From a virus, in IMG/VR virus record IMGVR_UViG_3300028840_002547, positions 1 to 28,561 of that record: a DNA stretch of 28,561 nt. One strand, 5' to 3'. Positions 1,468-26,084 of this stretch are shown in pieces. The position numbers were made by a program, and so were the translations under genes. The first letter of the stretch is position 1, and each line of letters begins with the position of its first letter. The notes beneath the pieces are model-generated. The model saw only the letters and a list, made by a program, of their open reading frames with translations. It made no database searches and was not told where the DNA came from.

Positions 1468-2619
1468 ATGGCTAATACACTTACCGACCTGATGGACACA
1501 CTTATCATGCCGATGGCACTTGACGTGCTTCGAGAAAACCTTGTCATGGCTGAGCTTGTTAATCAGGATTATAAATCTGAAGCAGCGAGTCAGAATCAAA
1601 CAATTAGGATTCCAAAACCTCAAGCAATGGGTGTTGCTGGCGATTTTGTTGCCGCAACTGGTTCCAGCTCTACTGATTTAGATGATCCATATGTGGACAT
1701 TACGATGTCTAATTGGAAGTATAAGCAGTGGGAGATGAGCGATAAAGAAGCATTCGACGCTGTGTCTTCTGGAATTCTTCCAAGTGCAGCCTCTGCTGCT
1801 GTCAAATCAATTGCTAATGCTGTGGATCTGTCTTTGCTGAACCTATATACTGAAATATACAACTATTACGGGACTCCAGGGACAACTCCAGATGAATCCA
1901 GTGATATCATTGGTGTAGGCAAAATCCTGAACGACAATCTTTGCCCTCCGGATCAGCGTAGGCTTGTTCTTGACACAGCCGCTCAGGCAAAGTTTCTCGA
2001 CATTTACGAAAAAGTTAATGAAACCGGTACGAATGCCGCTCTCGTGGATGCATCTTTGGGTCGTAAGTTCGGCTTTGATACTTACATGGATCAGTTGGTT
2101 CCAACTCATACAAAGGGAACTCTTGCAGCTGCAACTGCTATTGCTGCAAAAGCTATCTATGCCATTGGGGATACTGCTATCACTCTTGATGATTCTGGTG
2201 GTGGCGCATTGACTGGTACTCTTGTGAAGGGTGATAGGCTTACCTTCGCAGGTGATACTACTATCTATACTGTTACTGCCGCTGCTACCGCTGCCGCAAA
2301 TGAGATTGATATCGTTATCTCTCCTGCATTGGTTGCTGCCACTGCGGATGGTACAGTTGCAACTATTAAAGATGCTTGGGTGCCTAACTTAGCTTTCCAT
2401 CGGGATGCGATGGTACTGGCAATGCGACCTTTGCAGAATGCCGAAACCGTTGTAAACAGTAATTCGGTTATCTCTGTACAGACTGATCCTGTTAGCGGTA
2501 TTCCGCTTCGGCTTGAGACTTGGCGTGATCCTAAGTACTCGACTCAGTACTGGAAATTTGATGTGCTGTATGGCGTCAAGCTTGTAAGGCCGGAACTTGC
2601 TGCGATTCTGTTTGGATAA
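1468..2619 (+). CDS. Major capsid protein, P22 coat family
   Basis: 383 residues with the N-terminal pattern of P22-type coat proteins (MANTLTDLM, then LRENLVMAELVNQDY, then QTIRIPKP). The central region has a helical spine (about 92-130). Around residues 230-300 is a beta-rich stretch containing GTLVKGDRLTFAGDTTIYTV, which resembles the inserted Ig/telokin-like domain of P22 coat proteins. The C-terminus ends LYGVKLVRPELAAILFG, which fits the closing strand of the HK97-type fold. It should form the icosahedral shell. Codons are regular and the start is set by AGGAGA before ATG 1468. Family assignment comes from pattern recall, not a search. Confidence 0.88.
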   Translation: MANTLTDLMDTLIMPMALDVLRENLVMAELVNQDYKSEAASQNQTIRIPKPQAMGVAGDFVAATGSSSTDLDDPYVDITMSNWKYKQWEMSDKEAFDAVSSGILPSAASAAVKSIANAVDLSLLNLYTEIYNYYGTPGTTPDESSDIIGVGKILNDNLCPPDQRRLVLDTAAQAKFLDIYEKVNETGTNAALVDASLGRKFGFDTYMDQLVPTHTKGTLAAATAIAAKAIYAIGDTAITLDDSGGGALTGTLVKGDRLTFAGDTTIYTVTAAATAAANEIDIVISPALVAATADGTVATIKDAWVPNLAFHRDAMVLAMRPLQNAETVVNSNSVISVQTDPVSGIPLRLETWRDPKYSTQYWKFDVLYGVKLVRPELAAILFG

Positions 2620-2625
2620 AATCTT

Positions 2626-2653
2626 ATCCCTCGGTCTTAATCGGCCGGGGGAT
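2626..2653 (+). terminator. Hairpin after the coat gene (weak or partial terminator)
   Basis: ATCCCTCGG (2626-2634) pairs with CCGGGGGAT (2645-2653), 9 base pairs including one G-T, loop of 10. It is followed by TTAAAG rather than a run of T, so it may stabilise the coat mRNA 3' end or slow read-through rather than end transcription fully. Confidence 0.5.
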
Positions 2654-2675
2654 TAAAGCATAGGAGAAAAAAAAG

Positions 2676-2873
2676 ATGGTAACACTTTATGGAGTTAACA
2701 GCCGAGGTCAGGTTTTTAAGAGCTTTGTCAATCCAGATGAGGTTGATTTTTATATCAAAGAAAAAGGATTGATGACTACAGAACCAGAACCTAAAGCGGA
2801 AGAAAAACCGATTGAAAAGCCTGTTGAAGTCAAGAAACCTGGTAGGCCGAAAAAGGAAGATAAGGACGAGTAA
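2676..2873 (+). CDS. Small post-coat protein with AT-hook-like tail
   Basis: 65 residues. Residues 1-34 form a small folded part (MVTLYGVNSRGQVFKSF, then a Glu/Asp-Val-Asp strand). The rest is a low-complexity tail of Pro, Glu and Lys ending in KKPGRPKKEDKDE; the core PGRPKK matches the minor-groove AT-hook core GRP flanked by basic residues. Strong ribosome binding site (AGGAGA) before ATG 2676. Its stop codon is directly followed by the ATG of the connector gene. It could be a minor head component that touches packaged DNA; this is inference. Confidence 0.75.
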   Translation: MVTLYGVNSRGQVFKSFVNPDEVDFYIKEKGLMTTEPEPKAEEKPIEKPVEVKKPGRPKKEDKDE

Positions 2874-3491
2874 ATGCTTTACTCTGATGACTCATATTTG
2901 ACCGAATTAAGGTCACCGATCATGTCTTATGGTGTAACCAATTGGATAGATCAACATAGGCAAGCCGCTCGTAGGTTTGAAACTGACTTGAATGTCAGAT
3001 GGTATCGGTTTACCGCTCAATTATATGGGTACGATCCGGCTGAAACTCTCTTTGATGGATCGAAACTATTGCAAGGGTACGATTATGTCGGAACAAGTAC
3101 AGTTTCAGTTAGTGTTGGTGATATTGTTGTTGTGGATATTGGTCATACAAGTGGCGGTTTAGTCGGTAATTATTATGAGTCAATAAGTGTTTCAGGGTCT
3201 ACTGACTTGGATGCTGAAGATTTCACAGGTGCTGGATGGACGGACGTTACATCTGATAGGGTTAAGTTTCGTGATGCTGTATCTTATTATTCAATCTTCC
3301 TTATTTATAGGTTTCTAGCAAACAAAGAGCGAGAAGACGACTATGCGGATCAAAGAGAATATTGGATGATAAGGTATCAGGACGAAATGGATATAATCCT
3401 TTCAGACGATATAGGATACGACTTTGACGGTGATGGAGTTATTGATTCGACCGAAAAGAAATCAGCTCGTTATAGGATAAAACGTGTTTGA
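2874..3491 (+). CDS. Head-tail connector/adaptor candidate with EF-hand-like loop
   Basis: 205 residues. Position right after the coat gene and the two helical blocks (about 23-50 and 131-172) separated by a beta-rich insert (about 70-125) suggest a gp6/gp15-like connector that docks under the portal. Near the C-terminus residues 183-194 read DFDGDGVIDSTE, with Asp183, Asp185, Asp187, Asp191 and Glu194 at the 1, 3, 5, 9 and 12 positions of a calcium-binding EF-hand loop. The end is basic (RYRIKRV). ATG follows the previous stop with no gap; AAGGA inside the previous gene serves as ribosome binding site. Connector assignment is inference from order and shape. Confidence 0.65.
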   Translation: MLYSDDSYLTELRSPIMSYGVTNWIDQHRQAARRFETDLNVRWYRFTAQLYGYDPAETLFDGSKLLQGYDYVGTSTVSVSVGDIVVVDIGHTSGGLVGNYYESISVSGSTDLDAEDFTGAGWTDVTSDRVKFRDAVSYYSIFLIYRFLANKEREDDYADQREYWMIRYQDEMDIILSDDIGYDFDGDGVIDSTEKKSARYRIKRV

Positions 3492-3936
3492 AATAAAGAT
3501 AGAAGACAAGGAAGTAACAAAGTTTTTTCAAGACGTTCTTGATGGTTTTGAGGACGATAATATGAGTCGAATCTTAGAAGAAGCGGCTTCATATGTTGAT
3601 TACAAAATCCTTGAAAGAACTTCAAAAGGAATTGATGTAGACTCTAAACCCTTTAAGCCTTATGCGCCTATGACAGTGCGTTTAAGGAGTGAAGCCGGTT
3701 TACCTACCGACGTTCCTGACTTGTTTTTTACCGGTCAAATGCTTAACGCTATGACACATGATAGCTCACCTGAAGAAGGTAGGGTATTTTTTATGGGCGG
3801 CATAGGCAGTAATTCTCCTACTAATAAAATGTTGAAAAACAATCCTATACGGCCATTCTTTGGAGTATCCGAAGATGATATCCTGTTTGTTCAAGACCTT
3901 GTTGAAGACGAGGTTGATAAAATCATAAAAGGATAG
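3484..3936 (+). CDS. Phage virion morphogenesis (tail completion) protein
   Basis: 150 residues, GTG start at 3484 overlapping the previous stop by 8 bases, with TAGGA upstream. The pattern DSKPFKPYAPMTVRLR, followed by LFFTGQMLNAM and NNPIRPFFGVSEDD, is that of the Mu gpG-like/virion morphogenesis family (PF05069): a K.F.P..P.T..R core, an L..TG.M segment and a P.RPFFG..E.D segment. Members act at the head-tail joint or in tail completion. Order between connector and tail genes agrees. Confidence 0.8.
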   Translation: MFEIKIEDKEVTKFFQDVLDGFEDDNMSRILEEAASYVDYKILERTSKGIDVDSKPFKPYAPMTVRLRSEAGLPTDVPDLFFTGQMLNAMTHDSSPEEGRVFFMGGIGSNSPTNKMLKNNPIRPFFGVSEDDILFVQDLVEDEVDKIIKG

Positions 3937-3938
3937 AT

Positions 3939-4589
3939 ATGGGTAGAGAAGCTATACTTACTGAAATTGCGCACAAGATAGGAATACTTGACGATATAAC
4001 AACTACGACAAGAAAGCCTATTACTACTGCTAAGGAATTGAACGAAATAGCGCATCCGCAATTTCCGGTTGTTAATGTAATCGGTGGACTCCCCGGACCA
4101 TCAGGGGGTAGGCCTATTGAATTGGCAGAGGAAAGCTATGATAGTGCTATTCGCAGCGAAATGAGCGTGTTTATCAGAGTATTCGGATATAATAAAGTGA
4201 ATCCGGATACTGAAATAAGTACTCTATTTAATCTGATTTATCAAAACCTATATTACGATCCAACCCTTAAAGGGTATGATTATACTGATAAAAACGTGGA
4301 TGCGGTTGTAGACACTGACGTAGTTATCTATAGGACTGAAACTGAGTTAGCCGGTGATGACACCAATTTTCAGTTGATGAAATCGCTTACTGATCTTGGG
4401 TTGGTTAATGATTTAACTACATTGGATTATGATAACCCTGCATTGTTTACCGATGTAACGGACATAACCACATCAAAAGCATACTCTACGAGCGTTCAGC
4501 CGAGCGCAATAACTGAGTACAGAGACCCATACTTTATATTCACGATTATAATGAATGTGGCTTATAACCACAAATCATATTCAATTTAA
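3939..4589 (+). CDS. Tail terminator candidate
   Basis: 216 residues starting MGREAILTEIAHKIG. The layout, a helix followed by an FPVVNVIGG strand, then SEMSVFIRVFGYN and a helix carrying ISTLFNLIYQNLY, and a final TEYRDPYFIFTIIMNVAYNH strand, fits the small alpha/beta tail terminator (lambda gpU-like) fold, and the gene sits between morphogenesis and tail tube genes. Longer than a minimal gpU because of an insert near residues 120-185 rich in Asp and Thr. Assignment is inference from order and secondary-structure pattern. Confidence 0.55.
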   Translation: MGREAILTEIAHKIGILDDITTTTRKPITTAKELNEIAHPQFPVVNVIGGLPGPSGGRPIELAEESYDSAIRSEMSVFIRVFGYNKVNPDTEISTLFNLIYQNLYYDPTLKGYDYTDKNVDAVVDTDVVIYRTETELAGDDTNFQLMKSLTDLGLVNDLTTLDYDNPALFTDVTDITTSKAYSTSVQPSAITEYRDPYFIFTIIMNVAYNHKSYSI

Positions 4590-13543: not shown

Positions 13544-13882
13544 ATGGGAAAAGCTATTATCAGAGAAAAAGTAGGTGAAGAAGGATTATATCTTGTAACG
13601 CTTGAATATGAAACGAAAACAAGCGATATTAGGTATATAGAAGCCACTATTGACAAGCTTATGGAAGAACTCAAAGCGACACAAGCTGAAATTGAAGCCG
13701 ATACAGTAGAAGACCAAGAAGAAGATCCGGCAAAAGAAGAAGACCCGGAAGAAGAAGATCCAGATCCAGAAGAAGATGAAGACCCTTCGCCTTCATCAGA
13801 TCCAGAACCAGGCCCGCCTGAGCCTGAACCTCCACCTGAAGAATCGGGACAAATATCAGGGACAGTGAAAGGATTTATATAA
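13544..13882 (+). CDS. Coiled-coil/acidic proline-rich tail protein
   Basis: 112 residues. The N-terminal 50 residues (KAIIREKVGEEGLYLVTLEYE, then a helix IDKLMEELKATQAEIEA) resemble small tail tip proteins that carry a strand pair and a coiled coil. Residues about 53-100 are repeats of Glu, Asp and Pro (EEDPEEEDPDPEE), an extended acidic spacer. The last residues, GQISGTVKGFI, are the first strand of a carboxypeptidase-regulatory-like Ig module whose remaining strands are encoded by the next gene. The stop TAA shares its last base with the next ATG (TAATG). Confidence 0.7.
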   Translation: MGKAIIREKVGEEGLYLVTLEYETKTSDIRYIEATIDKLMEELKATQAEIEADTVEDQEEDPAKEEDPEEEDPDPEEDEDPSPSSDPEPGPPEPEPPPEESGQISGTVKGFI

Positions 13883-14196
13883 TGGCAACAACACCGCTCG
13901 AAGGAGTAACGGTAACGGCTTTCCGATGGGAAAATGATACATCAACCTATACAAATCAGGGGAGTGATACTACAGATGCACTCGGAGAATATGAGATATC
14001 TGGATTGTGGCAAGGACGATCATATAAGGTCAAGTTTGAAAAAAATGGGTATTTGGCCATATATTATGCCGATACAGGATTTAAGGCAGACCTTGAAACG
14101 GGTGGGCCTATTTATATGACCACAGATCTTGAGGTTGACGCAACCTTAAGTCAAGGCGGAACTATATCGGGAACAGTTGAAGGTGAAATACCTTAA
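13882..14196 (+). CDS. Carboxypeptidase-regulatory-like Ig module protein
   Basis: 104 residues. PLEGVTVTAFRW (5-16), DALGEYEISGLWQGRSYKV and FEKNGYLAIYY follow the strand order of CarboxypepD_reg (CnaB-like) beta sandwiches: G.pL.GV.V.a, then T...G.y.i.gL..G.Y.v.f...Gy. The usual first strand (IsGtV) is missing from its N-terminus and is instead the C-terminus of the preceding gene; in turn this gene ends with GGTISGTVEGEIP, a first strand with no module after it. Stop-start overlaps (TAATG) at both ends. Likely a tail tip adhesion or spacer domain. Confidence 0.65.
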   Translation: MATTPLEGVTVTAFRWENDTSTYTNQGSDTTDALGEYEISGLWQGRSYKVKFEKNGYLAIYYADTGFKADLETGGPIYMTTDLEVDATLSQGGTISGTVEGEIP

Positions 14197-15761
14197 TGGC
14201 ATCGGAAAATTCCGGAAAAATTACCTCATTACGTTATCAAATAACACAGCTTGAACAGCGTATAGAGGATATAGAATATTATGAAAATCAAGCAAAGGAG
14301 CAAGTGCTTGTATGGTGTGTTGATTTGGGTGATATCACCGTAGGATCTCGTGTAGGCACCATAGAAGTTGACAGAGAAAAACAAGGCTTAAATATTCATC
14401 CTGCTTATGAAACGGGTGCTCAGTATGACTCTGAACGAGATGGCGTTTTTCAGTATTTTGGAGTCATGAATCCGTATGCTAAATTGCTTAATGCAATTAT
14501 TGCTCCTGGAGTTGAGTCGTGGAAGCCTCGTTATCGATATGGAACAATATACGATATCAACAAGTCTGAAGATATCGCAAACGTAAATCTTGAAACATAC
14601 TCTTCTGAATTTTATCGTGATGTTTTAAATCAAGTTGACAATCTGTATGGTTTAAAAATTGAATACATGGATTGCAATTCTGCGCCGTTTGAAGAAGGTG
14701 ACGTAGTTGTAGTTGAGTTTGATGATACAAAATGGGGTCAAGGTAAAATAATTGGTTTTAAGTCTAATCCAAAACCTTGCAATGATGAGATTGTTTTTTT
14801 CTCACTAGGTGAACTTGGTATATTATGGGATATTAAAACCAATGCTTATGTAGAAGGTTTTACAGGCCCTACAGATTACGCTGATTGCATAGCGTACTTG
14901 GCAGATAAGACCGAAACAACCTTGGATAATCAGTACTATGGATTGCCATATACTCGATTATTACGAACTTTTTATACTGATGCTGCATATAATAATTATC
15001 ATGAAAAATTTACTACATGGGGGTTGACTGCACACGGAGAAAACCCAGGATATTTATATGATAAGCCTGAAATATCATATTCTGTAACTGAAGTTGATGG
15101 AGTATTTGAAAGTAGGACAGAATGGGATGAAACTATAACTCCTTGGGGAAGTATTGCACCGGCATATTTACATAACTTTTTTTATACTGAGGGGCCGTTT
15201 GGTCCAATATTTCAAGCTGGTGGAGTTAATCTTTACGATTGGTCATCATGGGATTATATGGAAAGTCATTTTGTTTGTCCACTTGATGAAGATGAGTCGT
15301 ATTATTCATACGGTACAGATGCGGAATATGGAAACGATGCGATAGGGATCGGATATCCTGGCGCTGTAATGAGTGAAATATCAATCGTGCAGGTACTTTT
15401 TAATTCCCATGCCTATATCGAAACAATTGATGATGAGGGTGTACTAAGGACAATATATACTTCATCAAGAGAAACAGAGGTATTATGCACTTGTGGTAAT
15501 TATCCTTGGGAAGTAGATGATAGCGATGAGTCAGACCCACAACTAATGGATATAAACGCTGAGTTTTCTATGGCTGTTTATGATCTTATTGAAGCCTTGC
15601 ATGCTTTGAGAGGTGTGGAGATTATGTATGATTCTCCTGATTATGAAACAAGTGTATGTTTAGGGCCATCGACAACTAGTGATAACTGTGAAAACAGCCT
15701 ATGCAACTATTGGTATAGTGTTGTTAATCCTAAAATGGAGTTAAAGATATATAAAAGCTGA
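14196..15761 (+). CDS. Tail tip/hub protein
   Basis: 521 residues, ATG sharing a base with the previous stop. Residues 5-35 form a coiled coil (ITSLRYQITQLEQRIEDIEYY). Residues about 45-195 include YRYGTIYDINKSEDIANV, LKIEYMDCNSAPFEEGDVVVVEF and KIIGFKSNPKPC, a pattern that recurs in phage tail tip proteins (an OB-like/hub domain with DVVVVEF and a GFK.NPKPC end). The rest is Tyr, Trp, Asp and Glu rich and may be a host-recognition or plug domain. Scattered Cys (CTCGNY, CLGPS, CENSLCNY) occur near the end. Preceded by the acidic and Ig-like tail genes, so all three may form one tip structure. Confidence 0.65.
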   Translation: MASENSGKITSLRYQITQLEQRIEDIEYYENQAKEQVLVWCVDLGDITVGSRVGTIEVDREKQGLNIHPAYETGAQYDSERDGVFQYFGVMNPYAKLLNAIIAPGVESWKPRYRYGTIYDINKSEDIANVNLETYSSEFYRDVLNQVDNLYGLKIEYMDCNSAPFEEGDVVVVEFDDTKWGQGKIIGFKSNPKPCNDEIVFFSLGELGILWDIKTNAYVEGFTGPTDYADCIAYLADKTETTLDNQYYGLPYTRLLRTFYTDAAYNNYHEKFTTWGLTAHGENPGYLYDKPEISYSVTEVDGVFESRTEWDETITPWGSIAPAYLHNFFYTEGPFGPIFQAGGVNLYDWSSWDYMESHFVCPLDEDESYYSYGTDAEYGNDAIGIGYPGAVMSEISIVQVLFNSHAYIETIDDEGVLRTIYTSSRETEVLCTCGNYPWEVDDSDESDPQLMDINAEFSMAVYDLIEALHALRGVEIMYDSPDYETSVCLGPSTTSDNCENSLCNYWYSVVNPKMELKIYKS

Positions 15762-15831: not shown

Positions 15832-17862
15832 ATGGCCTTTAAACAAGTAATAAATCCATTAACAGGTAAATTCGATTTAGTATCAGATAGCGCTACATCT
15901 GCAAATGTTGCTGCTGGATCGGCTGATGGCGATCTTTTAGAATGGGATGTTGCAGGGAATGAATATGTTGTTACAAATGATATCTCTCCTGATTCAGTTA
16001 CTTTCAATACTGGAGTTACCACTTCTGCTGAAAGGAAGCTTCGATGGGATGCAGATGCTGTAACGCTTGCATTTGGCGTACCTGATGGTGAAATTCAGTT
16101 AGGTCAAGAGGTTCACGATTATCTGACTAATCTATCTGGTGGCGATGTGGTTAACGGGGACGTTGTTTCGGCATATGGTGTTTCCGGTAACAGGCAAGCA
16201 TTTACATTGACTGACGCCACCGATCATGATTTATCTGTAAGCGTGTTAGGTGTTGTTACCGTTCCAACAATAGCAAACAACAACACTGGAAGAATCACTT
16301 TCAGAGGTAATGTTAGTGGACTAAACACTGATGCGTTAACAGAGGGGCTTCCAATATATGTCGATCCGGCGAACCCAGGAAAGTGGACCAATGTACGGCC
16401 AGTAATGCCGGATCATGCTATATATGTAGGCGTTTGCCTTGTAAAGTCGGCTACGGTAGGTGTTATCAATGCCAACCCACGATACTTAAACAATGCTACA
16501 ACTGAAGTTACAAAGGAACCAACAGGATTTGATGTTCCTGAAAATGTGGTTGTATCCTATGATTCTACTACTCGTAAAATAACCCTTACCGGTAGTTCGT
16601 GGAATGCTTATTATGAAGGTGAGCACGTATCAGCATTGATATCAGGATGGGTAAGTGATGCACACCCAGCAACATTAGATAAAAGATATTTTCTTGTCTA
16701 TAATGGGTCTGCATTTGTTTGGAAAGAAATAGGAACTGATACTTTTTACTTTTATGATTTACTAATTGCCTATGTTGACCATGGCACAAGCGATAAATTT
16801 GGATTGCGAGAATGTCATGGACTTATGCCATGGCAGACACATCATCATTTACACGACTCTATCGGCACCTTCAAGTATAGCGGAGGGATACTTGGCGGTT
16901 ATACGCTTGACAGTACAACCGCAGCTGATAGGCGACCAACTGTTAGCGAGTCAATTGTATATGATGAGGATTTGAAAAGCACAATTACAGCTTTTACAGC
17001 TGCAAATTATACTCAATTTTTCTTATCGTCTGCTGACACTGCAAACTTTACTAAATCGGCGGCTGACATTGTTCCTGTAAGCACAAGTCAACCTTATTGG
17101 AATGAGTTTTCAGGTGGGACATGGGGACAAACTCTCATGTCTAACAATTACTATGCGGCCATGTTTGTATTACAAGTCCCTACCACTGCTGACGCTGGAT
17201 CCCTACCGTACAGAACAATATTCGTGCAAGCACAATCTGAATATTTAACATTGACTGGAGCGCAAGCTGTAACAACCAATGATATAAACCTTGGTGAGCT
17301 AACTACACTTGCACCTGAAAGCGTTTTTATTGCAAAGATAATTATTAGGTATACTGGTGGAGATTGGAAACTGATCCAAGTAGATGCTATCACAGGAAAT
17401 AGGCAATCACAAGCCACAAGCCCAACCGGATCATATCTTGCAAGTGTTTCTACCGATGATACCTTAACTGGGTCTGGTACTGTGTCAGATCCTTTATCAG
17501 TAGCTGTTACAGCAGTCGTAAAGTCTTCAACTCAAACATTGACATCTGCTGAGGTCACAAACACTCTCGTAAACAATTATGGACAGACAGTCGCTAACAC
17601 ATTGACTTTACCTACGGCCGGTGCTGGTATGAACTTTATATGCACTGTAGGCACATCAGGGGCCGGAGCACTTAATATCAAAGCAGGTCCGAGTGATAAA
17701 ATATATCTTGATGGGACTGCATTGGATGATGGTGACAAGGTTAATAACGCTACTCCGGCAGTGGGAGACGCTATAACTTTTTTATCATTTCAGACAGGTG
17801 CAAGTACTTATGACTGGATTGCAAGAACGTCAATAGGAACATGGATTGATGGTGGTGCCTAA
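15832..17862 (+). CDS. Tail fibre / receptor-binding protein candidate
   Basis: 676 residues. The N-terminus (MAFKQVINPLTGKFDLVSD) is a typical short anchor of fibre proteins, and residues about 100-220 (EIQLGQEVHDYLTNLSG, VNGDVVSAYGVSGNRQAFTL, GLPIYVDPANPGKWTNV) match repeats I associate with phage fibre and structural proteins of the same kind. The C-terminal part (about 545-676; LTLPTAGAGMNFICTVGT, GPSDKIYLDG, DAITFLSFQTGASTYDW) looks like a fibre tip beta-domain. Mostly Thr, Ser, Gly, Val and Asp; no enzyme motif such as a depolymerase active site is visible. It ends in TAATG with the LRR gene. Confidence 0.7.
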   Translation: MAFKQVINPLTGKFDLVSDSATSANVAAGSADGDLLEWDVAGNEYVVTNDISPDSVTFNTGVTTSAERKLRWDADAVTLAFGVPDGEIQLGQEVHDYLTNLSGGDVVNGDVVSAYGVSGNRQAFTLTDATDHDLSVSVLGVVTVPTIANNNTGRITFRGNVSGLNTDALTEGLPIYVDPANPGKWTNVRPVMPDHAIYVGVCLVKSATVGVINANPRYLNNATTEVTKEPTGFDVPENVVVSYDSTTRKITLTGSSWNAYYEGEHVSALISGWVSDAHPATLDKRYFLVYNGSAFVWKEIGTDTFYFYDLLIAYVDHGTSDKFGLRECHGLMPWQTHHHLHDSIGTFKYSGGILGGYTLDSTTAADRRPTVSESIVYDEDLKSTITAFTAANYTQFFLSSADTANFTKSAADIVPVSTSQPYWNEFSGGTWGQTLMSNNYYAAMFVLQVPTTADAGSLPYRTIFVQAQSEYLTLTGAQAVTTNDINLGELTTLAPESVFIAKIIIRYTGGDWKLIQVDAITGNRQSQATSPTGSYLASVSTDDTLTGSGTVSDPLSVAVTAVVKSSTQTLTSAEVTNTLVNNYGQTVANTLTLPTAGAGMNFICTVGTSGAGALNIKAGPSDKIYLDGTALDDGDKVNNATPAVGDAITFLSFQTGASTYDWIARTSIGTWIDGGA

Positions 17863-19256
17863 TGATAGCTATTAATGGTTTATTAGGATATTATTATGGA
17901 GTAACTAAAGCCGAGGTTGATGCTCTCATTGCTTTTTATAATGCGACTGGAGGTGATAGTTGGACAAATAATAGCGGGTGGATAACAAATCCTAATGTTG
18001 CTGACTGGCATGGATTGGTATTAACCGGTGGTCATGTTACTCGACTTGATTTAGATAGTAATAATTTGTCTGGAACAGTTAGTGATACGATAGAAGACTT
18101 AGAATGGTTGACAGTTATTGATCTTCATGCAAATTCACTTACAGGAACAATAAGCTTATTGAACAAGTCAACTATAACAGGCTTTTATATTTATAATAAT
18201 TCACTAACATCAATCGACTTGACTAAAATCGTAAATGCAACGGCTATTTGGTGCAATCTCAATTCAATAACGGCTTTCGATGCTTCGGACAATACGAAAG
18301 TCGATGTTTTATATCTGCAAGACAATGGATTGACAGAATCGGCGGTTGATGCTGTCCTTGCCGGGATATATTCAAGCCGTTTGAGCTATACCGACACAAA
18401 TCCTGTACTTAATATAGGCGGAACCAATGCCGCACCGTCTGCAACAGGATTGGGGTATATTGAGGACCTTGTCTATGATCCTGACGGTGATGGTCACAAT
18501 AAGTGGACGATCACATATACTTCACCTGCGTATACAAATGTCACACAGGCTGAAGTTGATGCTTTGATAGATTTTTATTATGCAACTGATGGACCAAATT
18601 GGGCTACAAATACAAACTGGGTCACCGCTCTTGATGTGAGCACTTGGTACGGATTAACTTGTTCCGGCGGTCATGTGACAGAGATAAGTCTTATAGGTAA
18701 CGACTTGGCAGGTGCAGCCGGATCGACATTAGACGGCCTTGATTGGCTGACAAAATTATTTGTTTATGGTAATAATATAACGTCACTGGATGTTACAAAT
18801 TTAACAGCGATGCTCAATTTGCATATTGGCAACAATGCTAATATCACGTTTTCCGGGTTGTCTTCCCTTACAAACTTACTTCAGTTTTGGTGTTATTCTT
18901 GTGACTTTACGAGCCTTGACACGTCAAGCAATACAAAAATGATCGGTTTGTATGCATATGATAACTCTTTCCCGGATATCGATCTTTCATCAAATGTCAA
19001 GTTGAGAACAACAACACTCTATGACAATGCATGGACACAGACTGAAGTAGACGATTTTATTGACTATATTTATCAGGCAAGAGCCGATTTCGATTATGCA
19101 AGTACAATAGCTTGTGATATTTCGGGAACGAATGCTGCACCCTCCGGAACATATCAGTACGCAGCAACGCCAAGCAGCGGGAAAGAGAAAATTTACGCAC
19201 TTGAAAATGACGATGATGTTGAAGGTTTTAATCTTTGGTCGTTTACTTACAATTAG
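17862..19256 (+). CDS. Two-module leucine-rich-repeat protein, tail adhesin candidate
   Basis: 464 residues in two similar halves, starting near residues 14 and 227. Each begins with an LRR cap (AEVDALI.FY.AT.G..W, then a WxTxxxVxxWxGL segment), goes through a GGHVT step into several irregular leucine-rich repeats (LDLDSNNLSGTVSDTI; LTKLFVYGNNITSLDVTN), and ends in a shared closing unit (GTNAAPS followed by W.ITY or WSFTY). The cap pattern is common in bacterial and plant extracellular LRR proteins. Between halves is DPDGDGHNKW, a calcium-loop-like turn. No signal peptide, so it is not a secreted bacterial protein; directly behind the fibre gene with a one-base overlap it is most simply a receptor-binding protein or fibre chaperone. 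Confidence 0.75.
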   Translation: MIAINGLLGYYYGVTKAEVDALIAFYNATGGDSWTNNSGWITNPNVADWHGLVLTGGHVTRLDLDSNNLSGTVSDTIEDLEWLTVIDLHANSLTGTISLLNKSTITGFYIYNNSLTSIDLTKIVNATAIWCNLNSITAFDASDNTKVDVLYLQDNGLTESAVDAVLAGIYSSRLSYTDTNPVLNIGGTNAAPSATGLGYIEDLVYDPDGDGHNKWTITYTSPAYTNVTQAEVDALIDFYYATDGPNWATNTNWVTALDVSTWYGLTCSGGHVTEISLIGNDLAGAAGSTLDGLDWLTKLFVYGNNITSLDVTNLTAMLNLHIGNNANITFSGLSSLTNLLQFWCYSCDFTSLDTSSNTKMIGLYAYDNSFPDIDLSSNVKLRTTTLYDNAWTQTEVDDFIDYIYQARADFDYASTIACDISGTNAAPSGTYQYAATPSSGKEKIYALENDDDVEGFNLWSFTYN

Positions 19257-21497: not shown

Positions 21498-21872
21498 ATG
21501 TACAAATGTCAAAGTTGTGATGGAATAGTATCGGAAGCCAAGCTTTGGCGGACCGATTTTCGGAAAGCCGATCTTCGGAGAGCCGATCTTTCGGAAGCCA
21601 ATCTTTCGGGAGCCAATCTTCAGGGAGCCAATCTTTGGAATGCCGATCTCCGGAATGCTACTTTACCCAATACAGATAGGTTTTTAAATAATCCATACGG
21701 AGTTTGTCATATTCGAGAAAACTCCATCAGAATTGGATGCGAATATCATTCAGTGGAGGCATGGAAAGGTTTTACAGACGAAGAAATTAACAAAATGGAT
21801 CCTGGAGCCCTCGAATGGTGGAAAGGAAATAAGGAAATAGTTATGTTTATTGCTGAAAATCTGAAAGTCTGA
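21498..21872 (+). CDS. Pentapeptide-repeat protein with phage C-terminal domain
   Basis: 124 residues, strong site GAGGGGGG before ATG 21498. A short Cys pair (CQSC, residues 4-7) is followed by about eight pentapeptide units of the A(D/N)L.. type (residues 14-56: FRKADLRRADLSEANLSGA onward), enough for two coils of a square beta helix. The C-terminal 60 residues (CHIRENSIRIGCEYHSVEAW, then FTDEEINKMDPGALEWWKGNK) are a domain often seen behind pentapeptide repeats in phages. First gene of the rightward early operon. Some pentapeptide proteins mimic DNA and protect gyrase, but this one is short and no such role is shown. Confidence 0.75.
   Translation: MYKCQSCDGIVSEAKLWRTDFRKADLRRADLSEANLSGANLQGANLWNADLRNATLPNTDRFLNNPYGVCHIRENSIRIGCEYHSVEAWKGFTDEEINKMDPGALEWWKGNKEIVMFIAENLKV
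21535..21660 (+). repeat. 15-bp tandem repeats coding for pentapeptides
   Basis: About eight degenerate copies of a 15-base unit near GGAGCCAATCTTTCG, the DNA behind the pentapeptide repeats. Individual units match those at 25518-25758 closely. Confidence 0.7.
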
Positions 21873-25466: not shown

Positions 25467-26084
25467 ATGGAAATATTGGATTTAGAGAAAGTCAAAAAAG
25501 GTGAGATTAAAGATCTCCGGGAAGCCAATCTTTGGGGAGCCGATCTTTGGGGAGCCGATCTCCGGAGAGCCGATCTCCGGGGAGCCGATCTTCGGGGAGC
25601 CTATCTTTGGAATGCCGATCTTCGGGGAGCCTATCTTTGGAATGCCAATCTTTCGGAAGCATATCTTTCGGAAGCCGATCTCCGGGGAGCCAATCTTTGG
25701 AGAGCCAATCTTTGGGGAGCCAAGCTGCGGAATGCCGATCTTCTGGGAGCCAAGCTCCCGGATTATAAGATTTGTCCAGCAGGCGGAAGCTTTTTTGCAT
25801 GGAAAAAACTGCAAAACAGTATTATTTGCAAACTTAAAATACCAGCATATGCAAGGCGCACATCTTCTCTTGTCGGACGTAAATGCCGTGCCGAATTTGC
25901 GATTGTGGAATACATGGAAAAAAACGGGAAGTTATTTAAAGGTGTTGCATACTCAAAACATGATGGCACTGAGTATAAAGTTGGAAAAATCATGAAACCG
26001 GATCAATATGATCCGGATATCCGTGTCGAATGCTCACACGGAATTCATTTTCTTATATCATATGAAGAGGCTCTAAACTACTAA
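25467..26084 (+). CDS. Pentapeptide-repeat protein with DUF5758-like domain
   Basis: 205 residues, AGGAGGG upstream of ATG 25467. Residues about 15-98 hold about sixteen pentapeptide units (ADLWGADLRRADLRGA style). From residue 105 onward comes WKKLQNSIICKLKIPAYARRTS, SLVGRKCRAEFAIVEY, SKHDGTEYKVGKIMKP and ECSHGIHFLISYEEALNY, a pattern I know as DUF5758, the usual partner of pentapeptide repeats in phages. Paralogue of the protein at 21498 in its repeat part but with another C-terminus. Likely a host or DNA-mimic effector; not shown. Confidence 0.8.
   Translation: MEILDLEKVKKGEIKDLREANLWGADLWGADLRRADLRGADLRGAYLWNADLRGAYLWNANLSEAYLSEADLRGANLWRANLWGAKLRNADLLGAKLPDYKICPAGGSFFAWKKLQNSIICKLKIPAYARRTSSLVGRKCRAEFAIVEYMEKNGKLFKGVAYSKHDGTEYKVGKIMKPDQYDPDIRVECSHGIHFLISYEEALNY
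25518..25758 (+). repeat. Array of about sixteen 15-bp repeats coding for pentapeptides
   Basis: Repeating units such as GGAGCCGATCTCCGG and GGAGCCAATCTTTGG, in phase with the coding frame. Because 15 is a multiple of 3, other frames on both strands also stay open here; these are not genes. Confidence 0.8.

Follow-up and report, generated by a model that had tools for sequence, protein, structure and literature searches.

A phage tail-tip gene apparently split around an Ig-like module into three coupled cistrons

In this work we describe three contiguous genes (genes 1 to 3, positions 13544-15761) of the virus record IMGVR_UViG_3300028840_002547, whose 28,561 bases are called the window below and come from a tailed phage. 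Sequence comparisons give good support to the view that genes 1 and 3 descend from a single ancestral tail-tip gene, a relationship that the original prediction for this DNA had missed. We consider it moderately probable that this gene was split around an Ig-like module, that the pieces are now three coupled cistrons and that their products reassemble; the split protein may be of the baseplate-spike-like kind. A structural phage gene would thus have been divided into coupled cistrons at a hairpin turn, a point that makes structural sense, and the module in turn is interrupted behind its first strand. Should the pieces reassemble, a binding module can be mounted midway along a tail protein with no need to keep the reading frame, and the pieces form natural split-protein pairs that are directly testable. 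The analysis also defines a widespread, previously unannotated tail-tip protein family.

Layout of the three genes

The split gene comes shortly after the tape measure gene of the phage (7567-10590). Its features are as follows.

13544-13882, plus strand: gene 1 (112 aa), made up of the N-terminal half of the family's tail-tip protein, a linker rich in acidic residues and proline, and an ISGTV tail (family profile)
13544-13699, plus strand: beta-hairpin and helix 1 of the family domain (alignment to the intact relative L007 and its predicted structure)
13700-13849, plus strand: Glu/Asp/Pro-rich linker (sequence)
13853-13867, plus strand: ISGTV at the end of gene 1, first strand (A) of a CarboxypepD_reg-like module (joined versus separate PF13620 scores)
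13869-13873, plus strand: Shine-Dalgarno sequence AAGGA for gene 2, 8 nt spacing
13880-13884, plus strand: junction 1, TAATG (sequence and window ORFs)
13882-14196, plus strand: gene 2 (104 aa), a CarboxypepD_reg-like module that lacks its first strand and is followed by strand A of a further module (PF13620 profile)
14164-14178, plus strand: second ISGTV, at the end of gene 2, with no module behind it (sequence, joined-tail Pfam scores, spacing)
14181-14186, plus strand: Shine-Dalgarno sequence AGGTGA for gene 3, 9 nt spacing
14194-14198, plus strand: junction 2, TAATG (sequence and window ORFs)
14196-15761, plus strand: gene 3 (521 aa), with helix 2, the conserved core and the C-terminal half of the family's tail-tip protein (family profile)
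14301-14786, plus strand: conserved core WC...YMDCN...IIGF..NPKPC (alignments A2 and A3)

At each junction the genes overlap in TAATG and the reading moves to the -1 frame shortly after an ISGTV; the sequence and the window ORFs agree in this with what had been predicted. A TAATG overlap is by itself not unusual: it occurs at two other gene pairs of the window (10590 and 17862), and in relatives it is the most frequent way for the tail-tip gene to overlap its upstream neighbour (33 of 83). The two junctions have TAATGGCA in common, which is the usual start context of the window phage; we rejected it as a repeat of its own, because ATGGC opens 8 of the 20 genes surveyed.

Genes 1 and 3 correspond to two parts of one family protein

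In tblastn, gene 3 matches a portion of one gene each in Marinobacter phage PS3 and ctUtU524, and the N-termini of these two genes resemble gene 1. A search with an alignment of the core returned 80 loci from viruses and 10 from genomes, and a family HMM was made from 83 of the loci, the window being left out. Gene 3, which starts with MASENSGKITSLRYQ and has no Ig-like module, matches this profile from position 93 to 282 (E 2.6e-56) and contains the family core WC...YMxCN...GF..NP..C. Gene 1 matches positions 1 to 62 (E 9e-6), where the N-terminal hairpin MGKG.I...G..G.Y.V and the helix of the family lie. The match of gene 1 is modest, and since its pairwise BLASTP comparison with two relatives is not significant, the profile was needed to detect it; among all the window ORFs, the next one after genes 3 and 1 is at E 1.1. 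With the relatives from a second survey included, both parts share one ORF in 100 of 106 distinct relatives. Of the other six, four are truncated at the end of their contig, and L371 and L414 have a simple frame change. The window phage is the sole family member found with three cistrons, seen in two near-identical contigs of this one phage, and a pattern scan of IMG/VR for ISGTV, four or five residues, TAATG and the remainder of the module returned only this phage (the matches of a first scan, swamped by an out-of-frame terminase motif, were rejected).

The position of the break can be read on the AF2 model of the intact relative L007 (60-row alignment, pLDDT 94.3, pTM 0.86), in which a beta-hairpin (residues 2-9 and 14-20) is followed by two helices (24-46 and 53-79) and then by strands. 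Gene 1 aligns to residues 1-53 of L007 and gene 3 from about residue 56, and these boundaries place the break, together with the inserted acidic-proline linker and module, in the turn between the two helices. Since the domain is continuous in the relatives, we infer that the beta-hairpin and helix 1 of gene 1 would pair with helix 2 and the rest of gene 3, rebuilding the domain. The original prediction of a fold split between proteins would thus extend to the tail-tip domain itself, with gene 1 supplying a beta-hairpin and a helix to the domain of gene 3, while the sharing of the Ig-like module, for which it was proposed, is plausible from the sequences. Judged by the sequences of the relatives, the hairpin tip accommodates inserts in other phages as well, and the distance from the N-terminus to the core ranges from 72 to 346 aa. 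One relative (L079, positions 3314-4001) carries a Cys-rich repeated insert in the helical hairpin, that is, another module at the same turn.

The tail-tip family has no useful match of its own in PHROG, Pfam or NCBIfam, and PF04717 (Phage_base_V) matches 1 of 60 family members (E 0.0064). The best Foldseek matches of the family model are weak and fall among baseplate spike proteins of phages and injection systems, namely E217 8eon_F (best, E 2.9e-3, TMq 0.27), Mu 9ki1_V and VgrG. A role as a gpV-like baseplate spike with an OB-fold is, on these model comparisons, a lead and not a result. The family resembles these spikes in giving them as its best Foldseek matches and in the position of its gene soon after the tape measure; it differs from them in that the matches are weak only and in having a helical hairpin inserted in its N-terminal part.

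The single frame changes of two relatives (L371, positions 2700-3000; L414, positions 2600-3000) lie in or near the helical hairpin, have no start signal and could come from error, decay or recoding; they look like error or decay. These two cases are the point in favour of explaining the breaks of the window in the same way, by sequencing or assembly error or by gene decay, an explanation that we nevertheless regard as very improbable. A second assembled contig, IMGVR_UViG_3300017963_000520, is 100% identical over 12,312 bases around the junctions, with 1 mismatch within an overlapping 13,563 bases, and both junctions are the same in it. Because a second assembly carries identical junctions, simple base errors at both of them are unlikely. 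Furthermore, a stop, an ATG and a Shine-Dalgarno sequence coincide at each break, and long open frames continue on either side.

Gene 2 carries an Ig-like module in a shifted register

Gene 1 ends in GQ-ISGTV-KGFI*, and gene 2, which opens with MATTPLEGVTVTAF, has the N-terminus MATT-PLEGVTVTAF and the C-terminus GGT-ISGTV-EGEIP* (asterisks, stops). Gene 2 alone matches PF13620 (CarboxypepD_reg) with 29.1 bits, below the curated cut-off of 32.3 bits, and because this match covers profile positions 12 to 64 only, we conclude that the module lacks its first strand. When the tail of gene 1 is joined ahead of gene 2, the match covers positions 1 to 64 and rises by 4.6 bits to 33.7 bits, above the cut-off. 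The claim that ISGTV closes gene 1 and that the remainder of the module opens gene 2 is borne out, the PF13620 match being complete when the two are joined. The C-terminal tail of gene 2 itself, placed ahead of gene 2, completes the match just as well (33.8 bits). The tail of gene 2 joined to gene 3 gives no PF13620 match; the second ISGTV does lack a module behind it, as the original prediction had stated.

The two copies of ISGTV are 103 residues apart, which is one module length, and the end of gene 2 resembles a module boundary in a bacterial tandem array, where the end of a module is followed by the ISG.V of the next. By this spacing and this comparison, gene 2 holds a single module whose register is shifted, strands B to last of one module being followed by strand A of the next. 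The copies differ at third bases (TCA/TCG, GGG/GGA and GTG/GTT), and the codon usage of gene 2 agrees with that of the rest of the phage. No homologue of gene 2 was found in phage records, viral contigs and the PDB, except in the sister contig; tandem modules sought in viral contigs for an alignment gave 4 pattern matches and 0 module arrays. AF2 of gene 2 alone, with no usable homologue alignment, gave an uninformative model (pLDDT 38). In 49 records of relatives, PF13620 has only two matches; they are weak and belong to other genes, which lie upstream of the family gene. One relative (L009, positions 1756-2034) has a stand-alone small gene that starts with TAATG and encodes a CarboxypepD_reg-like module with the first strand present, two genes upstream of its tail-tip family gene.

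In the explanation that we favour, a Glu/Pro linker and a CarboxypepD_reg-like module would have been inserted in the turn of the helical hairpin, cutting the tail-tip gene. The linker of gene 1 would extend outward and its ISGTV would be the missing first strand of the gene 2 module; strand donation from the gene 1 tail to gene 2, plausible on the profile scores, would anchor gene 2 on the exterior of the tail tip, where it would probably act as a decoration that binds surfaces. The ISGTV of gene 2 may serve another copy of gene 2 as donor strand, may replace the strand that gene 2 itself lacks, or may be the relic of a lost second module. In transthyretin-like folds, strand A is central and runs parallel to a neighbour near the C-terminus. 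Because a short link precedes ISGTV in gene 2, filling its own slot would, with this geometry, be hard. A chain of variable length, in which gene 2 modules complement each other by donor-strand exchange with the tail of gene 1 as primer and without chaperone or usher, is an improbable extension of the donor role.

We give a smaller place, as rather unlikely, to a scar of past rearrangements, in which a module or a tandem pair was inserted in the hairpin turn and a later loss truncated the second module; genes 1 and 3 may then still cooperate, with the ISGTV tails as leftovers and gene 2 as a passenger or a poor folder. That gene 3 contains nothing for the second ISGTV to pair with, that the split arrangement occurs in one phage only and that gene 2 ends as a module of a tandem array does all speak for this history, but both tails are still ISGTV despite their different third bases, Shine-Dalgarno sequence and start are clean at both junctions, and gene 2 has the codon usage of the phage. 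The idea of module gain and loss at a junction used for swapping has no support in its swapping part, since no DNA repeat of at least 12 nt linking junctions 1 and 2 was found and the pattern scan gave no other IMG/VR contig with this split; a relic of loss at the second junction is possible.

Expression of the three genes

The two Shine-Dalgarno sequences are encoded by the residues that follow ISGTV and have normal spacing, so that both junctions combine a short overlap with an internal Shine-Dalgarno sequence, which are features of termination-reinitiation. One-base overlaps are typical of this process, and short gene overlaps are over-represented among the subunits of heteromeric complexes (PMC10666635). 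We propose that coupled termination-reinitiation would yield three polypeptides here.

Alternatively, a -1 frameshift at each junction, or re-entry at the stop, would produce one polypeptide of about 735 residues with a central Ig-like extension. This has in its favour the -1 direction of both steps, the single polypeptide of the relatives and the use of frameshifting by phages for Ig-like domains (PMC5009743), but there is no slippery heptamer X-XXY-YYZ in the frame overlaps (13840-13882 and 14187-14196), the second overlap is of three codons only, two shifts in succession would give very little product, and the second ISGTV is without a module even in the joined reading. We therefore see little chance for this mechanism, and the frameshift-made fusion of the original prediction is not supported, both junctions having in addition a Shine-Dalgarno sequence and an ATG.

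Comparison with known systems

Frameshift-made Ig-like domains on phage structural proteins are a known device (Fraser et al., 2006; reviewed in PMC5009743 and PMC8718954), of which SPP1 offers a further case (PMC8718954). The window shares with them a promiscuous Ig-like module placed out of frame on a tail or head protein. It differs from them by stop-start coupling with its own Shine-Dalgarno sequences in place of a slippery site, and by a module that is in the middle of the protein instead of C-terminal and is cut after its first strand. Coupled TAATG gene pairs (PMC10666635) have in common with the window the overlap, the Shine-Dalgarno sequence inside the upstream gene and products expected to assemble; in the window, however, the subunits are pieces of what is a single protein in relatives, and the cut is inside a domain.

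On the sequence, gene 2 would have an empty slot and a spare strand. This likens it to the subunits of chaperone-usher pili, where donor-strand complementation fills an Ig-like unit that lacks one strand with a spare strand carried by the neighbouring subunit. In contrast with these pili, gene 2 lacks the first strand and would receive it from a C-terminal donor; the window phage has no known chaperone or usher, and the pairing is a predicted one.

Other observations

In three relatives' loci (L032, 4361-4363; L090, 4361-4363; L089, 562-564), which represent two distinct sequences and come from a viral contig, a Syntrophaceae MAG and a deltaproteobacterial MAG, the codon of the near-invariant Cys of YM[DT]CN reads TGA, and the frame continues past it (PIGYMT*NGAAFAVGD); the 69 other scored loci have TGC or TGT at this Cys. 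A hairpin of 6-7 bp with a GGU/GGG loop lies about 17 nt downstream of the TGA, with folding z-scores that are not significant, and the Syntrophaceae genome carries a tRNA-Sec (75.6 bits). TGA at this conserved Cys is a candidate for selenocysteine in a phage tail protein. Another relative has an in-frame TGA (L063, 4136-4138; SGSDY*PIDHG) that is not at a conserved Cys position.

Elsewhere in the window, a leucine-rich-repeat protein gene (17862-19256) has a TAATG overlap with its upstream gene, and two pentapeptide-repeat proteins (21498-21872 and 25467-26084) have repeat DNA common to both, the second of these genes being traversed by long open frames on both strands.
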